From assembly GCA_029262005.1 (NCBI GenBank), contig JAJDAG010000121.1:1-48920 (forward strand): a stretch of DNA of 48,920 nucleotides, read 5' to 3'. The notes beneath the pieces were generated by a model. It was not told the DNA's origin and ran no database searches. It saw nothing but the letters and a program-made list of their open reading frames with translations. The DNA is from Candidatus Zhuqueibacterota bacterium. Lineage in GTDB: Bacteria > Zhuqueibacterota > Zhuqueibacteria > Oceanimicrobiales > Oceanimicrobiaceae. The position numbers were made by a program, and so were the translations under genes. Shown here piece by piece: positions 15,985 through 44,282 of the stretch (positions within the stretch are counted from its first letter, which is position 1; every line of letters begins with the position of its first letter).

Positions 15985-18945
15985 ATGCAGGTTCAAATTC
16001 CCGGAAATGGTCTCCGCGGCTACACAAGTGGCTGTAAGCTTCTTGTTACTCTCATCACCCTGATACTAGTGCTGGGTGTTTCTTCCAACTCGCATGCCCA
16101 ATTTGGTGATATTTTTGGTTTTGGGAAAAATAAAGTTCATTACAAGACATTTAAATGGTCGACTATCAAAACAGAGCATTTTGATCTTTATTTCTATGAG
16201 GAAGAACGCCAGGCTGCGCTGGACGCTGCTGAAATTTCAGAACGCTCGTATGCCTACCTTAGCGAAACTCTGGACTACAAATTCAAACAAAAAATACCGC
16301 TTTTGATTTATGCTTCTCACAACGATTTTCAGCAAACCAATGCCATCCAAAGCTACATCAGCGAAGGCACTCAGGGTGTCACCGAATCGCTAAAAGGCCG
16401 CATGCTACTGCCAATAACAGGTTCGTATGGGCAGTTTATCCATGTCCTTACTCATGAAATGGTACACGCATTTCAGTTTGATATCATGCTTGCAGATGGT
16501 CCATCCGAGGTTATTCGCCGCTTCAATCCGCCGCTTTGGTTTATCGAGGGCATGGCAGAATATTTATCGGTGGGCATGGATAACATCACGCGCATGTGGA
16601 TGCGCGATGCCGTTCTAAACAACACTTTGCTTTCCATTCCAGACATGACGTATGTTTTCGATATTCGGGTGTATAGAATGGGGCAGGCTATTTGGTACTA
16701 CGTTGGCGAGCGTTATGGCAAGGAAGTGGTAGGACGCATTTTTAAGACTGCGCGCGCCACCGGTGACATCGGCCGCGCCTTCAAAGCGCATACCGGATTG
16801 GATCTTGAAGAACTCTCCAAAAGATGGCAAGAAGATTCTCGTAACCGCTACTTACCACAAGAAATCGTCTTAAAGCGGCCGGAAGAAGTCGCTGATCCAA
16901 TCACTGACCCGTGTTATGATTGCACCAGGCTCAACATCGTTCCGGCGCTTTCACCTAACGGAGAAAAGTTAGCCTACATTGGCGACAAAAATTTTACTTT
17001 GAACATGTTCCTGCGGGGTCTCAAGCGCAATGAAAATGGTCCAGGGTATCAAAAAGATAAGGCTAAAAAAATAGTTCAGAGCGGATCGAGCCAGAGCTAT
17101 GAGTCGCTTCGCTATTTTACTACGTCGATGAATTGGTCACCTGATGGAAAACTGTTTTCTTTTGTGGCCAAAGCAGGAAAGAACGATGCAATTTACATCG
17201 TTGATGCCGTAAAGAACAAAGTGATTAACACTCTGAAATTTGAAAATCTGACCGGTATGACGGCGCCATGCTGGTCCCCGAACGGGGAGCAGTTGGTCTT
17301 TTCCGGAACGCAGGGTGGCATTTCTGAACTGTATATTTCTAATGCTGCAGGTGAAAACCTGCGGAGGCTAACTCACAACCGCTACGCCCATCTGCATCCG
17401 CAGTGGTCACCAGATGGGAAAAAGATTGCTTTCACAACCGATCGCGGGCCCAACACGAAAATAGACAGCCTCATCTTCGGGGAATACAACATTGCCTTGC
17501 TTGACATCGCTTCAGGTGATGTTGAGCTTCTGACGCAGACAGGTGGCAATCACATAAACCCCGTGTGGACAAAAGAAGGAGAAGAAATTTTCTTCATCTC
17601 GGATATGAACGGAATTCCCAATGTCTACTCAATGGATTTAAATACGCGTGACGTCTTCCAGATTACCAATTTCATTACCGGCGTCTCCGGTATTATCACA
17701 GAAAGTCCGGCGATTACTTATGCTGCTGAAACCGGACGCCTTGCTTTCAGCGCTTTCTCCAATGCCGGCTGGTATATTTATACGTTGGATGAATATGAAA
17801 AGACCAAAGTGGAAGACTTTGCCAGTACCGCCGTTTTGGAGCAGCTTGAAGATCCAAACGAAAAGTATCGCGAGTTTTCAAAAGCGGACAGCTCAGAATT
17901 CCTTCTCACTGCGTACAAATCTAAACTAACTCCGGATATCGTTGTCGGTGGCGGCGCTTTTGCCACAAACGTCGGTTTTGCCGGGCAGACAGCTTTTCTA
18001 TTCAGCGATATGCTGGGAGATAAAAATCTGCTTATTCAGGCAGCGCTGTTTGGGGATCCGCTCGAGTCAACAATCATTGCCACCTACTACAACCAGAAAC
18101 GGCGACTTAACTGGTCGTTCACAGCATTTCAATTTCGTGATGACTTTGGCTTTTTCACCTCAGGTGGCTCTGGATTTGTGACTCAAATTTTCCGAGGAGC
18201 GGGAATTGGCGCTTCGTTGCCATTTAACCTCACATCCCGTCTGGAACTTGGATCAAATCTGTATTTTGTCGATCAGGAAGTCGTGCAGTTCAGTTTTCTA
18301 ACCAACGAAAGTGTTCAGTCTGATGTCGGAAGTGCACTTTATGGTTCGTTCGATGCTGCACTTGTCAGGGATACAGCTCAGTGGGGGATCGCAGCGCCGT
18401 TGGCAGGTTCCCGCGCCAGATTGAGTGTCAGGCAGAATCTCGGTGACCTCAGGTGGACACTTTTCTTTGCAGACTACAGAAAATATCTTCCGGTGCGGTT
18501 CATGGTTGCAGATCCAATCCCAAGAATTACACTGGCATATAGAGTGTCTTCAGGCGCATCCTCGGGCCGGGATAGCCGGCTGTTCAGCATTGGCGGGCCT
18601 TTCACTTTTCGCGGCGACGACTATGGCGCTCTCAGAGGAACCCGTGCTGTTTTTCAAAGCGTGGAACTCAGAATGCCCATTGCACCATTTCTGCCGCTTC
18701 AGTACGATTTCCTGACAGGCGTGGTCTTTTTTGACGCTGCAAATGTTTGGGGGCCAACCGGATTTCGCAACAACCTTACCGGCGAGCTCGAGGTTGCAGA
18801 TTACGATTTCAATTCAACGAAAACGGCCTACGGCCTTGGCATCCGCTTCAATCTTGGCGGTTTGCTTGTTCTTAGATGGGACTTCCCGTTAAAGCACAAA
18901 AAGGGATCACCCGGAACATTCTTTTCCATCGGAATCGATTACTAA
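15985..18945 (+). CDS. Peptidase-MA / TolB-propeller / Omp85-like barrel fusion protein
   Basis: The ATG at 15985 is preferred over an upstream GTG because AGGAGG lies nine bases before it; this gives 986 residues with a signal peptide (about 1-39, ending SHAQ). Domain order: (1) peptidase-MA-like gluzincin, about 55-290, with H157-E158-x2-H161 in THEMVHAF and the downstream Glu in WFIEGMAEYLS. (2) PD40/TolB-type propeller repeats, about 320-620, with WSPDGK and WSPNGE motifs. (3) A C-terminal beta-barrel, about 650-986, resembling bacterial surface antigen/Omp85, including SIGGPFTFRGDDYG and a terminal aromatic (Y). It is probably an outer-membrane protein with periplasmic protease and propeller parts. 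Substrate is unknown. A stem-loop follows the stop codon. Confidence 0.85.
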   Translation: MQVQIPGNGLRGYTSGCKLLVTLITLILVLGVSSNSHAQFGDIFGFGKNKVHYKTFKWSTIKTEHFDLYFYEEERQAALDAAEISERSYAYLSETLDYKFKQKIPLLIYASHNDFQQTNAIQSYISEGTQGVTESLKGRMLLPITGSYGQFIHVLTHEMVHAFQFDIMLADGPSEVIRRFNPPLWFIEGMAEYLSVGMDNITRMWMRDAVLNNTLLSIPDMTYVFDIRVYRMGQAIWYYVGERYGKEVVGRIFKTARATGDIGRAFKAHTGLDLEELSKRWQEDSRNRYLPQEIVLKRPEEVADPITDPCYDCTRLNIVPALSPNGEKLAYIGDKNFTLNMFLRGLKRNENGPGYQKDKAKKIVQSGSSQSYESLRYFTTSMNWSPDGKLFSFVAKAGKNDAIYIVDAVKNKVINTLKFENLTGMTAPCWSPNGEQLVFSGTQGGISELYISNAAGENLRRLTHNRYAHLHPQWSPDGKKIAFTTDRGPNTKIDSLIFGEYNIALLDIASGDVELLTQTGGNHINPVWTKEGEEIFFISDMNGIPNVYSMDLNTRDVFQITNFITGVSGIITESPAITYAAETGRLAFSAFSNAGWYIYTLDEYEKTKVEDFASTAVLEQLEDPNEKYREFSKADSSEFLLTAYKSKLTPDIVVGGGAFATNVGFAGQTAFLFSDMLGDKNLLIQAALFGDPLESTIIATYYNQKRRLNWSFTAFQFRDDFGFFTSGGSGFVTQIFRGAGIGASLPFNLTSRLELGSNLYFVDQEVVQFSFLTNESVQSDVGSALYGSFDAALVRDTAQWGIAAPLAGSRARLSVRQNLGDLRWTLFFADYRKYLPVRFMVADPIPRITLAYRVSSGASSGRDSRLFSIGGPFTFRGDDYGALRGTRAVFQSVELRMPIAPFLPLQYDFLTGVVFFDAANVWGPTGFRNNLTGELEVADYDFNSTKTAYGLGIRFNLGGLLVLRWDFPLKHKKGSPGTFFSIGIDY

Positions 18946-39634: not shown

Positions 39635-41368
39635 TCAATCGCCGATGTGTACCAATTTGAATCCAAGAATTTTTACGCTCTCGGGTCCATCCAATGGTCC
39701 GTTAAGAAACTGCGGATACATGGGTGAGATTTTCCCATAGTGATAAACATTGATACTATAAACGCCGGTACCCAGCTTAAACACACCGCTCTCTCTTGTG
39801 GCCGTATGCGGCTCTCCCGGGTCGTCTACAACCACCTTGTTATTACCGGCGTTGCCATCGCGTGGCAAAACAACGCTTGCGGCTGCATCAGAAATGGTTA
39901 AATAATAACTTTCGTTAAGTTGCGAGTCACCGCTGTTGTACCAAACTTCCGCAAGTACACGGTAGCGGCCTGAACTCTCTACTTCAAACGTCACAATTCC
40001 TGCATCAGAGTAACCGGCATCACCCTTATCAGCCCGGACGCTGCTTTCGGCAGCCACCAAAATATCATCGATGGATTCAACCTCCGGCTCAACCACTTCA
40101 ATTGTATCGGTTGCTGAAACGTACCCTCTTTGATTAAAAGCGGTCGCAGTCACAATCCTGATACCAGGTGTCCAGAACGTTGTTTTAACACTGCCCGCTT
40201 GGCCGGCGTTATCAACATAATCGACAACAACATATTCAGAATTTTGTGACTGCCAGGTAATTGTTGCAGGATGTCCGGCTGTCACAAGACGCGTCGTTGA
40301 CAACATAAGAACTGGGTTTTCTGGTAAGGGCGCCTCTTTTACATAAACAGAATCCGTTCTAACGGAACGCATGTTGTCATCACCATAGGCCGTTGCAACG
40401 AACACTTTTTTACCAGGATTGGCAAAAAGAATCTCCTCAGAACCCTCAGGTCCACGTGAGCCAACACCCTGATCGATCACCACTTGATAACCGTTGGAGC
40501 GCCATTCGATGGAAACAGCTTCACCAAATTCAATAGAATCTTGCAAGACAGAGAATTCCAGAGATGGTGCAATGGCGCGGAGAGCAGTAACATAAACAGA
40601 GTCCATCAACTGAGTTGTAAGGTTGTCTGCCCCATAAGCGGTGGCCGTAAACACCTTGAGACCAGTTGTTGAGGAAAGAAGAATGTCAGTCCCACTCGGC
40701 CCACGAACACCCACACCCTGGTCAATGATGACCTGAATGCCATCAGTATGCCAGCTTAAGTCGATCGTTTCCCCCAGCAAAACAGTGTCTTGGGCAACGT
40801 TGAACGCCAATGCAGGCGCCACGCCTGCCGGCACGTCGAACTCAATATAAATATTGGACGTCTGGCTCTCTTGGATGTCGACTTCCATCTCCACCTTGTT
40901 ACTGCCGTTTCTTGCACCACTTACGAAGTAATGCCCGGGTAACAAAGCATGAACAGATGTGCGCTCACGCGTTTCAACAACCAAAACTCCGCTCGCATCA
41001 ACCACCCGAACAAGCGCCGAATCCAGGTTTACAGTAACCAGCAATTGCCCCTGACTCGCAGGCAATGCTGTCATTAAAGCTTCAATCGTGTACTTCTCGC
41101 CATCCTCAACCAACAACTGTTCAGAAAAAATTCGAAACCCCTTACGTGTAACTCTCAAGGCATGCAACCCGGGTTGAACATCTTGAACTTTAAACGGGGT
41201 AGAGCCAACGACAACGCCGTCAACAAAAACTCTTGCTGAATCGATCAGAATGCCGTCTTTATCAACAGCAATCACTTGTAGAGTTGTGGGGGAGGCCGGC
41301 GTCATGGGCAAGTCGGCTTTGCTGCAACCAAAAGCAACCAATGCCATCAAAATCCAGTGCCGTTTCAT
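39635..41368 (-). CDS. PEGA-domain lipoprotein with three Ig-like repeats and a C-terminal beta domain
   Basis: The start is placed at the ATG at 41368 (GAGG nine bases upstream), giving 577 residues with lipobox AFGC15. Residues 30-103 are a PEGA domain (RVFVDGVVVGSTPFKVQDVQPG); 107-180 is a second, divergent one. Three repeats of about 78 residues follow: 185-262, 268-344 and 351-427. The first two are close in sequence, each holding VIIDQGVG or VVIDQGVG, RGP and TATAYG-like motifs. The last about 140 residues (435-577) look like a carbohydrate-binding-type beta sandwich. It is an envelope protein with adhesive or wall-binding modules. It is cotranscribed with the upstream OmpA/barrel gene (43-base gap) under a likely sigma-54 promoter. 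Confidence 0.8.
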   Translation of the reverse strand: MKRHWILMALVAFGCSKADLPMTPASPTTLQVIAVDKDGILIDSARVFVDGVVVGSTPFKVQDVQPGLHALRVTRKGFRIFSEQLLVEDGEKYTIEALMTALPASQGQLLVTVNLDSALVRVVDASGVLVVETRERTSVHALLPGHYFVSGARNGSNKVEMEVDIQESQTSNIYIEFDVPAGVAPALAFNVAQDTVLLGETIDLSWHTDGIQVIIDQGVGVRGPSGTDILLSSTTGLKVFTATAYGADNLTTQLMDSVYVTALRAIAPSLEFSVLQDSIEFGEAVSIEWRSNGYQVVIDQGVGSRGPEGSEEILFANPGKKVFVATAYGDDNMRSVRTDSVYVKEAPLPENPVLMLSTTRLVTAGHPATITWQSQNSEYVVVDYVDNAGQAGSVKTTFWTPGIRIVTATAFNQRGYVSATDTIEVVEPEVESIDDILVAAESSVRADKGDAGYSDAGIVTFEVESSGRYRVLAEVWYNSGDSQLNESYYLTISDAAASVVLPRDGNAGNNKVVVDDPGEPHTATRESGVFKLGTGVYSINVYHYGKISPMYPQFLNGPLDGPESVKILGFKLVHIGD

Positions 41369-41411
41369 TTTAATTACCTCAAACATGATTTTTCTTCTAT
41401 TCGCTTTCAAT

Positions 41412-42401
41412 TTAGAAAGCCTCGTTAACATTGATGCTTAGGCCAAGTGTTGTGCCTAACTTCCATTTTGGAGTCTCAAAGATGGAATTTGAGTTAGAGT
41501 AACTCAACATTGGGTTGAACTCAATAATCCCTTTCTTAATGACAACTCCTGCTGACAGTCCCGTGGTCTTAAAAGACCAATTGTCTGAAGATGTATAGAA
41601 TTCCCATCCGCGAAAAACACCTGCTGAAACACCGAACTTCTTCGTCTTCATATGTTTCAGACCAACATAAACGAATGATTCAGACTGGTTACCCTCAGTT
41701 GTGGAAATATTCCACGGTGTTACGCCGCCCTGCAAAATAAAAGAGGTCTTGTTGATGATAATACCCAATGCCATAGAAGGCGAAATCAAGCCCTGTCCTG
41801 AACCGGATTGCCAAGTCCAGAAGCCACCCTGCAAAAACCAGTCGAATTGACTGTTGTTCTGCTTCACAAAGAAATTTCTGGCCTCGGTTTCAACCTGAGT
41901 TTCAATCATAGGCTGCATGTTTTGAAAATCATGGGCCAACTTCGCCAGCGCCTCATTCAGTTTCAAATTTTGCTGCTTGATGCGCGACAATTCTTTCTTA
42001 TAGTTCTCAGGAGACGCTTTTCTGGACCAAACAACTTTGACCCCTGCAATGTTCTCATGAGTAACCCCGACCTGACCGCGTTGATACCGACCACGCAGGG
42101 CCCTGGCCCGCCCGAGGCGTTTGGCATCATTCCATGCCTCAGAAATGTTTGTGTGTACGCTCTTACCATTCATCACCCAACCAGTACTGTCCGCTGAACC
42201 AAGAAAAGTTACTTCAATAGAAGGATCTTTCATAAGTTCATCTAATGCGGCCAAAGATTCCCGGTCGATGCTTTTCTCTACTAAGGAAGTGCTTCCCGGC
42301 TGAAAAGTCTTGATCCACAAAACTCCAGAAGTCTGCGCAGATGCATTTCCTATAAGCACAAATGTGACAAACAGTGCAAAAATGCAAATTGACTTTTTCA
42401 T
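41412..42401 (-). CDS. Outer-membrane protein: OmpA-like domain followed by a beta-barrel
   Basis: The ATG at 42401 has AGG seven bases upstream and gives 329 residues with a signal peptide ending NASAQ (about 1-23). Residues 27-125 have OmpA-like features: FQPGSTSLVEKSIDRESLAALDELM, VTFLGSADSTGW, and RLGRARALRGRYQRGQVG, matching the helix/strand pattern of the peptidoglycan-binding fold. A coiled-coil-like linker (about 130-180) leads to a C-terminal barrel of alternating strands (WFLQGGFWTWQSG ... LGLSINVNEAF, ending in Phe). OmpA itself has barrel first and OmpA domain last, so the order is reversed here. Function is unknown; it is the first gene of the pair with the PEGA lipoprotein. Confidence 0.7.
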   Translation of the reverse strand: MKKSICIFALFVTFVLIGNASAQTSGVLWIKTFQPGSTSLVEKSIDRESLAALDELMKDPSIEVTFLGSADSTGWVMNGKSVHTNISEAWNDAKRLGRARALRGRYQRGQVGVTHENIAGVKVVWSRKASPENYKKELSRIKQQNLKLNEALAKLAHDFQNMQPMIETQVETEARNFFVKQNNSQFDWFLQGGFWTWQSGSGQGLISPSMALGIIINKTSFILQGGVTPWNISTTEGNQSESFVYVGLKHMKTKKFGVSAGVFRGWEFYTSSDNWSFKTTGLSAGVVIKKGIIEFNPMLSYSNSNSIFETPKWKLGTTLGLSINVNEAF

Positions 42402-42460: not shown

Positions 42461-42476
42461 TGCAATTTTAATGCCA
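42461..42476 (-). promoter_or_regulatory. Sigma-54 (-24/-12) promoter of the OmpA-like/PEGA operon
   Basis: On the minus strand TGGCAT-TAAAA-TTGCA gives GG-N10-GC with the exact spacing and 10 of 11 positions of TGGCAC-N5-TTGCA. Transcription should start near 42450, about 50 bases before the ATG at 42401. It lies beside a gene for an NtrC-type protein, which adds support. Confidence 0.7.
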
Positions 42477-42508
42477 CGAAAAATAATCAAACTATTAATC
42501 ATTTATTT

Positions 42509-42534
42509 TTAACTATTTAAAGCACAATAGTTAA
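42509..42534. promoter_or_regulatory. Perfect palindrome TTAACTATT-N8-AATAGTTAA, candidate enhancer
   Basis: Nine-base perfect arms with an 8-base spacer, about 60-85 bases upstream of the predicted sigma-54 start. A third half-site AACTATT lies at 42490-42496. The size and position suit a Fis-type dimer such as the divergent regulator; this is inferred. Confidence 0.55.
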
Positions 42535-43031
42535 TCGCACTCAAAGCAGTCCAAATGCTCTGATACTGTACTAAAATGAGACCTTTTCACTAGCGACATG
42601 CTGACAAATCAACGTCATCCGGAAAACAAAAACAGTAAATTCGTTTCAAATTTCGCGACAATTAAACTCCAATTTTTCAGGCTGTGTCTCGTCAGGCAGG
42701 TAATTAGAGTAGATGTAAACAGAAGATAATTTTTCGGGATCTACTTTGGGTAAAATTCGCCCCAATACATGTTCAGGTTTATTTCAACTGTCTCATGTTG
42801 GAAAAGCTCTGCACCGCAGGTACGAACACTGTCCGGGATCTGGAAAAATCTTCTCATTTGATTTGTACATTAAGTTGTTGCCTTCCCTGCAAGTAGTGCT
42901 TTACGCTGCTCAGATTAAGATTCGTTAATAAGGTTGCCATTCTAAAGGGATTTATTTATATTTCGTACTATTAAAGTGTGACATTACAAAGCGTCTATTC
43001 AATTCCGTGCCAACCCGAGGAACAGAGTGAC

Positions 43032-44282
43032 ATGACCACCCTCCTTATTGCTGACGATGAGCAAACCTTCCTGGACTTTATGGTCCGCCTTCTCCAGAAA
43101 GAGCACAACCTGTTAATTGGTCGTAACTGGAACGATGTGTTGGAAATATATGAATCCAACATCTGGCGCCTGAATGCGATGATATTAGACGTAAACATGC
43201 CCGGACTGAGTGGTGACCCATTCACAATGATAGAGAAGTTGCTCAAATCGAATCCAACCGTGCCCATGATAATAATTTCCGGACAGGATATTGTTCTCCG
43301 CCATGAATTTCTGAAAATGGGTGTTTTTCAATATCATGGAAAGCCGCTCGATATGGTTGACCTGAAGCTGACGATTCAGAGCGCCATCAAGCATAATCGT
43401 GCGCTCAGAAGGTTGGAGAATTATGACAAAGCAGAGCATGAAACGGTTAAGTACTACGAAAAAATGTTAAACCTAAGTGTGTACGATGTTAAAGAGCGTA
43501 TTATGGGGCAAGACAAAGAGCCTAGAAGATCACCGGTTTTGATTCGCAGTGAACAGGGGTCACGGCCATCAATGCTGGCCAAAATCATCAACTCTGAAAT
43601 TGATGGTAAGCTGTTTTTCTACAAAGCATGTCACCCTTCTCTCAAAAACTTCATCCCTTACAATCTGCAAAACGGAGATACACTCTTCCTGGAAGGTGTC
43701 GAGAATTTAGGCAAAGAGGAACTGGTGTTTCTTCTGAAAATGCTGCAAAACATGGATGGTGGGAACGGCCTCAATGGCCAGAACTTGCCGCAATTCCGTC
43801 TGGTCGCCTCTATCTCTAACAATGTTGACATTGAATCAGCAGACCCGGACTTTTTGCAGCTAATCGACTACTTATCCAAGGTTGAAATGAGAATTGAACC
43901 GCTCCGTCTCCGCAAACATGAACTCAGGGAAGTCATCACCCTTATGTTTGAAAAGAAAAAAAGAACCCATTTTTCACGAGCGGAAACAATTTCAGAAGAG
44001 CTTTACGAATTGCTGGTTGAGTATGGCTGGCCCCTCAACATAGACGAACTTGAGCTGATTCTTGAGGCCCTCATTCTGACTTGCCAGGATGAAATTGTAT
44101 TACAAAAACACCTGCACCAACTCGACTTCTCAGACATGGCCGACACAAAATATCCGACACTTGACGACATGGTGGATGAGCACATTAAAAAAGCGCTCAG
44201 GCTTACCATGGGTAATAAATCCAGAGCTGCGAAAATGCTCGGGATCACACCAAAGACGCTTTATTCACGCATCAAGAATTAA
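43032..44282 (+). CDS. NtrC-like response regulator with degenerate AAA+ domain
   Basis: The ATG at 43032 (GAGGAA upstream) gives 416 residues; an in-frame GTG at 42978 is possible. The receiver domain (1-120) is complete: acidic pair in IADDEQ, phospho-acceptor D53 (ILDVNMPG), S83 and K104 (HGKPLD). Residues 165-345 align by eye with the sigma-54 activator AAA+ domain, but Walker A (GESGTGKE) is SEQGSRPS (173-180). Walker B (GGTLFLDE) is GDTLFLEG, and the GAFTGA loop is deleted. The C-terminal Fis-type helix-turn-helix is intact (NKSRAAKMLGITPKTLYSRI). It should bind DNA but not hydrolyse ATP or open sigma-54 complexes. It probably acts as a DNA-binding or competing regulator. Confidence 0.87.
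   Translation: MTTLLIADDEQTFLDFMVRLLQKEHNLLIGRNWNDVLEIYESNIWRLNAMILDVNMPGLSGDPFTMIEKLLKSNPTVPMIIISGQDIVLRHEFLKMGVFQYHGKPLDMVDLKLTIQSAIKHNRALRRLENYDKAEHETVKYYEKMLNLSVYDVKERIMGQDKEPRRSPVLIRSEQGSRPSMLAKIINSEIDGKLFFYKACHPSLKNFIPYNLQNGDTLFLEGVENLGKEELVFLLKMLQNMDGGNGLNGQNLPQFRLVASISNNVDIESADPDFLQLIDYLSKVEMRIEPLRLRKHELREVITLMFEKKKRTHFSRAETISEELYELLVEYGWPLNIDELELILEALILTCQDEIVLQKHLHQLDFSDMADTKYPTLDDMVDEHIKKALRLTMGNKSRAAKMLGITPKTLYSRIKN

Follow-up and report, generated by a model that had tools for sequence, protein, structure and literature searches.

A predicted sigma-54 promoter conserved class-wide ahead of an OmpA-like/PEGA operon in KSB1 bacteria, with a candidate activator and a putative divergent pseudo-activator

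The nearest described regulatory analogue of the locus analyzed here is the PrsK/PrsR PEP-CTERM system, which has sigma-54 promoters (PMC1569441, Haft et al. 2006); pepA is RpoN-dependent (PMC9850573). Common to the two would be secreted surface or matrix genes with sigma-54 promoters, an NtrC-type response regulator that binds a conserved activator site upstream of them, and a link to exopolysaccharide export. In contrast, the targets at our locus are not PEP-CTERM proteins; the operon encodes a barrel protein of the outer membrane together with a PEGA lipoprotein. The PrsR motif has been reported for Proteobacteria only (PMC1569441). More broadly, sigma-54 has been proposed to control the exterior of bacteria (Francke et al. 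2011, PMC3162934), and this theme, as set out in the passages of that paper on the subject, fits both the envelope or matrix role that we suggest below and the sigma-54 sites of the genome studied, whose downstream genes are lipoprotein-like or encode a glycosyltransferase, a polysaccharide-export protein or a TonB-dependent receptor plug. Those passages do not name KSB1, and our literature search for work on sigma-54 in KSB1 gave no paper. The same source, in the part that concerns them, describes NtrC-family regulators that have no GAFTGA motif and work with sigma-70, namely VpsR, TyrR, HupR and DhaR, of which VpsR is a polysaccharide regulator (PMC3162934).

The operon and its sigma-54 promoter

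The window, by which we mean the whole 48.9-kb stretch of DNA analyzed, is contig C26 of a 5.77-Mb genome of candidate division KSB1. The OmpA-like/PEGA operon is shared by relatives whose MAGs carry the label candidate division KSB1 or Caldithrix sp.; an identical 3961-nt contig (L069 and L070) has been deposited under two MAGs, one labelled KSB1 and the other 'Phycisphaerae', which is probably a case of mis-binning. The operon and its predicted promoter are laid out as follows.

39635..41386, minus strand: gene 2, PEGA/Ig-like lipoprotein (PF08308, E 1e-10; lipobox FGC-SKA)
41412..42401, minus strand: gene 1, secreted OmpA-like protein (open reading frame, orthologs and AlphaFold2 model with a mean pLDDT of 71)
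42461..42476, minus strand: predicted sigma-54 -24/-12 promoter TGGCATTAAAATTGCA (near-consensus site in 15/15 orthologous upstream regions)

The true start of gene 1 is the ATG at 42401, which has AGGTGAT ahead of it and opens a signal peptide, MKKSICIFALFV (MKKSICIF). In the AlphaFold2 model, an N-terminal alpha/beta domain is followed by a coiled coil and a C-terminal 8-stranded outer-membrane barrel (residues ~184-328). The modelled barrel resembles OprF, NspA and OmpA with Z scores of 12-14 (13.8 for OprF and 12.0 for OmpA), a likeness of shared fold only, and the domain order is reversed relative to OmpA, with the alpha/beta domain before the barrel and not after it. No Pfam OmpA domain match was obtained at E <= 1, a comparison of the protein with solved structures by sequence gave no significant match, and the OmpA-like identity of the N-terminal alpha/beta domain is putative. 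A second, barrel-less copy of this domain lies in a different gene cluster of one relative (L065:9229-9768).

Each of the seven other family members has an ortholog of gene 1, as do nine genomes from other families of the class; beyond the family, the proteins are only ~30% identical. An ortholog of gene 2 directly follows gene 1 in every related locus long enough to tell, and the operon of a barrel protein and a PEGA lipoprotein that the earlier note had drawn from the window is thereby upheld. The C-terminal beta-sandwich of the gene 2 model resembles carbohydrate-binding modules by fold matches, and the gene 2 orthologs range from ~430 to 920 residues, varying with the number of Ig-like repeats.

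Ahead of gene 1, the minus strand reads TGGCAT-N5-TTGCA from 42476 to 42461 with GG-N10-GC spacing, just as the earlier note had stated. Its placement of the site about 50 bases before the gene also agrees with our count, since transcription would be expected to start at ~42450 and to leave a leader of ~49 nt before the ATG at 42401. TGGCATTAAAATTGCA differs from TGGCACN5TTGCW at one position and is the sole site this close to it in the 48.9-kb window, and genome-wide the pattern TGGCAYN5TTGCW occurs 31 times compared with 6 for a reversed control pattern. Conservation of the two boxes in relatives, which had been proposed as a check, proved to be strong. All 15 orthologs of the OmpA-like gene with upstream DNA carry a near-consensus -24/-12 box, down to ~30% protein identity; each locus has one such box, 74-164 nt ahead of the matched coding region, in which TGG, A and TTGC (GG and GC included) are invariant across the 15 loci. 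The expected frequency of such a site is 0.0005 per 300-bp shuffled region. The sigma-54 promoter of the operon is thus conserved across one class of candidate division KSB1. Because of this conservation, of the RpoN encoded in the window's genome (PF04552, 211 bits) and of the genome-wide enrichment, the promoter is well supported, to the limit of what sequence alone can give, and TGGCATTAAAATTGCA is almost certainly a genuine sigma-54 (RpoN) promoter of the two-gene surface operon.

An upstream dyad and its candidate activator

For 14 orthologs, all 7-mers ahead of the -24 box were enumerated without bias, with 60 shuffles as control; TGTCTCA/TGAGACA came out on top, with a score of 15.8 compared with a maximum of 11.1 in the shuffles. 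The half-site often lies at -104 to -130 relative to the -24 box. When the half-site was searched for at a distance of N90..120 from a sigma-54 box, 20 matches were found in 8 family genomes compared with 1 for the reversed control, and three of these 20 directly follow the 3' end of a gene for a full-length NtrC-type activator. When sites were chosen by one half only, a gap of 3 stood out for the other half (7/17 sites with at least five matches in the free half, against a background of 2%), which gives the dyad TGTNTCA-N3-TGANACA. Two features follow from this search.

42567..42583, minus strand: candidate enhancer (UAS) GGTCTCA-TTT-TAGTACA, a degenerate copy of the dyad (10/14 dyad matches)
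G000:C56:76777-78159: candidate class-wide NtrC/AtoC-type activator with a receiver, an AAA+ domain with G(A/S)FTGA and a Fis HTH

The first base of the candidate UAS is 107 bp upstream of the -24 box. Individually, this copy of the dyad is weak (10/14, p 0.05-0.06), and the family-wide test gave 0/400 shuffles. No convincing dyad site was seen in some orthologs (G020 and G028), and a perfect TGTCTCA-N0..20-TGAGACA dyad occurs nowhere in the window's genome.

Matches to the candidate activator were found in 60/60 genomes searched, at 70-87% identity in most; an intact Walker A is kept by 30/30 of its orthologs and G(A/S)FTGA by 29/30. The activator gene is followed by a sigma-54 box at 23 of the 30 loci that were read, and all 23 of these activator-adjacent promoters contain the dyad (mean 10.9/12, best shuffled set 7.9), with gap 3 the best among gaps 0-10. 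A matrix built from the activator-adjacent sites outside the family scored 42.2 on the operon promoters within the family, compared with 3.8 (sd 9.5; 0/400 shuffles), and 59.7 on those outside the family, compared with 4.3 (sd 9.4; 0/400 shuffles), in a test that is not fully independent, as the training sites were chosen with a consensus taken partly from the operon's own promoters. On the other sigma-54 promoters of the genome, the activator-adjacent matrix remained at background (p 0.08).

In its architecture of receiver, AAA+ domain with G(A/S)FTGA and Fis HTH, the candidate resembles the AtoC/NtrC group-I enhancer-binding proteins. Unlike these, it falls below every equivalog cut-off (AtoC, 502 of 714 bits) and forms a class-wide orthologous group clustered with genes for receiver-DUF4388 proteins. 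At L190:3778-10858, for instance, the activator gene is followed by genes for a ~390-residue protein of unknown kind, two receiver-DUF4388 proteins and a 160-residue protein, possibly a signalling module. PrsR (TIGR02915) was considered as the activator and rejected, the best score in the genome being 442.8 bits and that of the candidate 436 against a curated cut-off of 502.6.

With moderate confidence, we take the class-wide NtrC-type protein to be the activator of the operon, a link to the dyad drawn from position and conservation only, with orthologous promoters being non-independent observations. The phyletic patterns of operon and activator are not one to one, as a match to the activator occurs in 60/60 genomes and the operon in 17, and the dyad could also be bound by a paralog of the activator whose HTH is similar. 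We consider it rather unlikely that the promoter, real in itself, is served by some other bEBP with a TGTC/GACA-type site while the TGTNTCA dyad belongs to another factor. The genome does encode dozens of NtrC-type proteins, and the sites in the G001 and G007 promoters are arranged differently, as TGTC-N8/10-GACA; however, the matrix of activator-adjacent sites from outside the family recovers the operon promoters as a set.

Among the genome's other near-consensus sigma-54 sites, an exact TGTCTCA/TGAGACA occurs only before a Wza-like polysaccharide-export gene. The syntenic loci of this gene have a sigma-54 box in 6/6 genomes, that of the window included, and in 4/6 of them TGAGACA is present without mismatch at -113 to -124; the matrix support for these promoters is modest (p 0.025). 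Taken with the products of the operon, this polysaccharide-export target suggests a role in the envelope or matrix.

The divergent regulator and the palindrome

On the other side of the intergenic region, a regulator gene is read divergently from the operon, and a palindrome lies between the -24 box and the candidate UAS.

42509..42534, no strand: perfect 9-8-9 palindrome TTAACTATT-TAAAGCAC-AATAGTTAA, real as sequence and not conserved
42914..42929, plus strand: conserved box ATTAAGATTCGTTAAT, directly upstream of the regulator's sigma-70-type promoter, in 7/7 family members
42934..42962, plus strand: predicted sigma-70-type promoter of the divergent regulator, TTGCCA-N17-TATATT (from the alignment; recognisable in most relatives)
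43032..44282, plus strand: divergent response regulator with a receiver, a Fis-type HTH and a degenerate AAA+ domain (PF00072, PF02954)

The earlier note had described the product of the divergent gene as an NtrC-type protein, a description that holds for its architecture and fails for its central domain. The receiver is intact (D8, D9, D53 and K104), and receiver and Fis HTH are nearly invariant across seven orthologs. However, Walker A reads SEQGSRPS and not GESGTGKE (consensus GExGTGKE), Walker B reads TLFLEG in place of a sequence like SIFLDE, and a deletion has removed the GAFTGA segment, all three motifs being lost in 7/7 orthologs. Because of these losses, the divergent regulator is not expected to activate sigma-54, and its gene appears to encode a pseudo-activator, in which a receiver and a Fis HTH flank a dead AAA+ domain and which would not open the promoter of the operon. 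Like VpsR, TyrR, HupR and DhaR, as far as the source cited above describes them, the regulator has kept the bEBP architecture and lost the GAFTGA loop; unlike those proteins as described there, it has also lost Walker A and Walker B. Its NCBIfam scores for the four are far below the cut-offs and gave no assignment. Orthologs of the regulator are restricted to its own family, whereas the operon promoter is class-wide.

An alternative, which we consider rather unlikely, is that the pseudo-activator represses or modulates the operon: once phosphorylated, it would occupy the intergenic DNA shared by the two, either in competition with the true activator or together with it. The divergent gene order is kept in 6/7 relatives, the HTH is near-invariant, the phosphorylation site is intact and the conserved box at 42914-42929 lies within the shared region, all of which would accord with such a role. 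However, the genes flanking the regulator side are also conserved, so the linkage may be plain synteny, and the box adjoins the promoter from which the regulator itself would be read. A search for copies of ATTAAGATTCGTTAAT near the sigma-54 promoter gave none, and a place for the box there was rejected; it is possibly an autoregulatory operator or an UP element.

Far less probable is the arrangement put forward in the earlier note, a self-contained unit with the 9-8-9 palindrome as the binding site from which the divergent NtrC-type regulator would activate the sigma-54 promoter. The palindrome is indeed perfect and is accompanied by a third partial half-site at ~42489-42500, and the conserved gene order and the nearly invariant receiver and HTH would suit this arrangement. 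However, no copy of the palindrome was found in any of six related intergenic regions when these were aligned, despite the nearly invariant HTH, and an equally good palindrome arises in 4.6% of dinucleotide shuffles of the AT-rich 630-bp region (p ~0.05). Moreover, the palindrome begins just 33 bp upstream of the -24 box, which is close for an enhancer. We rejected it as the enhancer on these three grounds. The self-contained unit is likewise unsupported, since Walker A, Walker B and the GAFTGA loop of the divergent regulator are missing in 7/7 orthologs and the promoter is present in families that do not have this regulator. The weakest reading, that the -24/-12 match is itself a chance sequence, could appeal to two-mismatch matches to TGGCACN5TTGCW occurring at chance level in the window (39 compared with 37.6 expected), but it is refuted by 15/15 conservation to ~30% protein identity against 0.0005 expected per region.

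Proposed mechanism and further sigma-54 sites

Overall, we regard it as probable that the operon has a genuine sigma-54 promoter served by a class-wide activator and the dyad, and that the divergent pseudo-activator does not open it. Sigma-54 RNA polymerase would be held as a closed complex at 42461-42476, and an AAA+ activator bound ~105-130 bp upstream would remodel this complex. The likeliest such activator would be the protein encoded at G000:C56:76777-78159, which has the dyad TGTNTCA-N3-TGANACA in its own downstream promoter and could act here through the degenerate copy at 42567-42583. The OmpA-like/PEGA operon would then be co-expressed with the Wza-like polysaccharide-export gene in a cell-surface regulon. 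The divergent pseudo-activator would be transcribed from its own sigma-70-type promoter, and its role at the operon, if any, would be that of a DNA-binding modulator.

More speculatively, KSB1 bacteria may have a class-wide sigma-54 regulon in which one uncharacterised NtrC-type activator co-expresses the OmpA-like/PEGA pair with polysaccharide export, and to which one family adds, at the operon, a phosphorylation-controlled, ATPase-less modulator of dead NtrC type. Neither the dyad TGTNTCA-N3-TGANACA nor such a regulon was found in the literature searched. With the proposal, what began as one guessed promoter would become, for an uncultured phylum, a regulon that can be put to the test: its operator is defined, its activator gene is named, and its targets would include no fewer than two operons of the cell surface. 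It also corrects an annotation trap, in that the adjacent NtrC-type gene resembles an activator but is without the parts needed.

Elsewhere, near-consensus sigma-54 boxes were seen at dnaK and dnaJ-like genes in two genera (L100 and L101, at G000:C126:13425-13440 and 16536-16551, and L197:4681 and 7982), and these chaperone genes are possibly under sigma-54 control.
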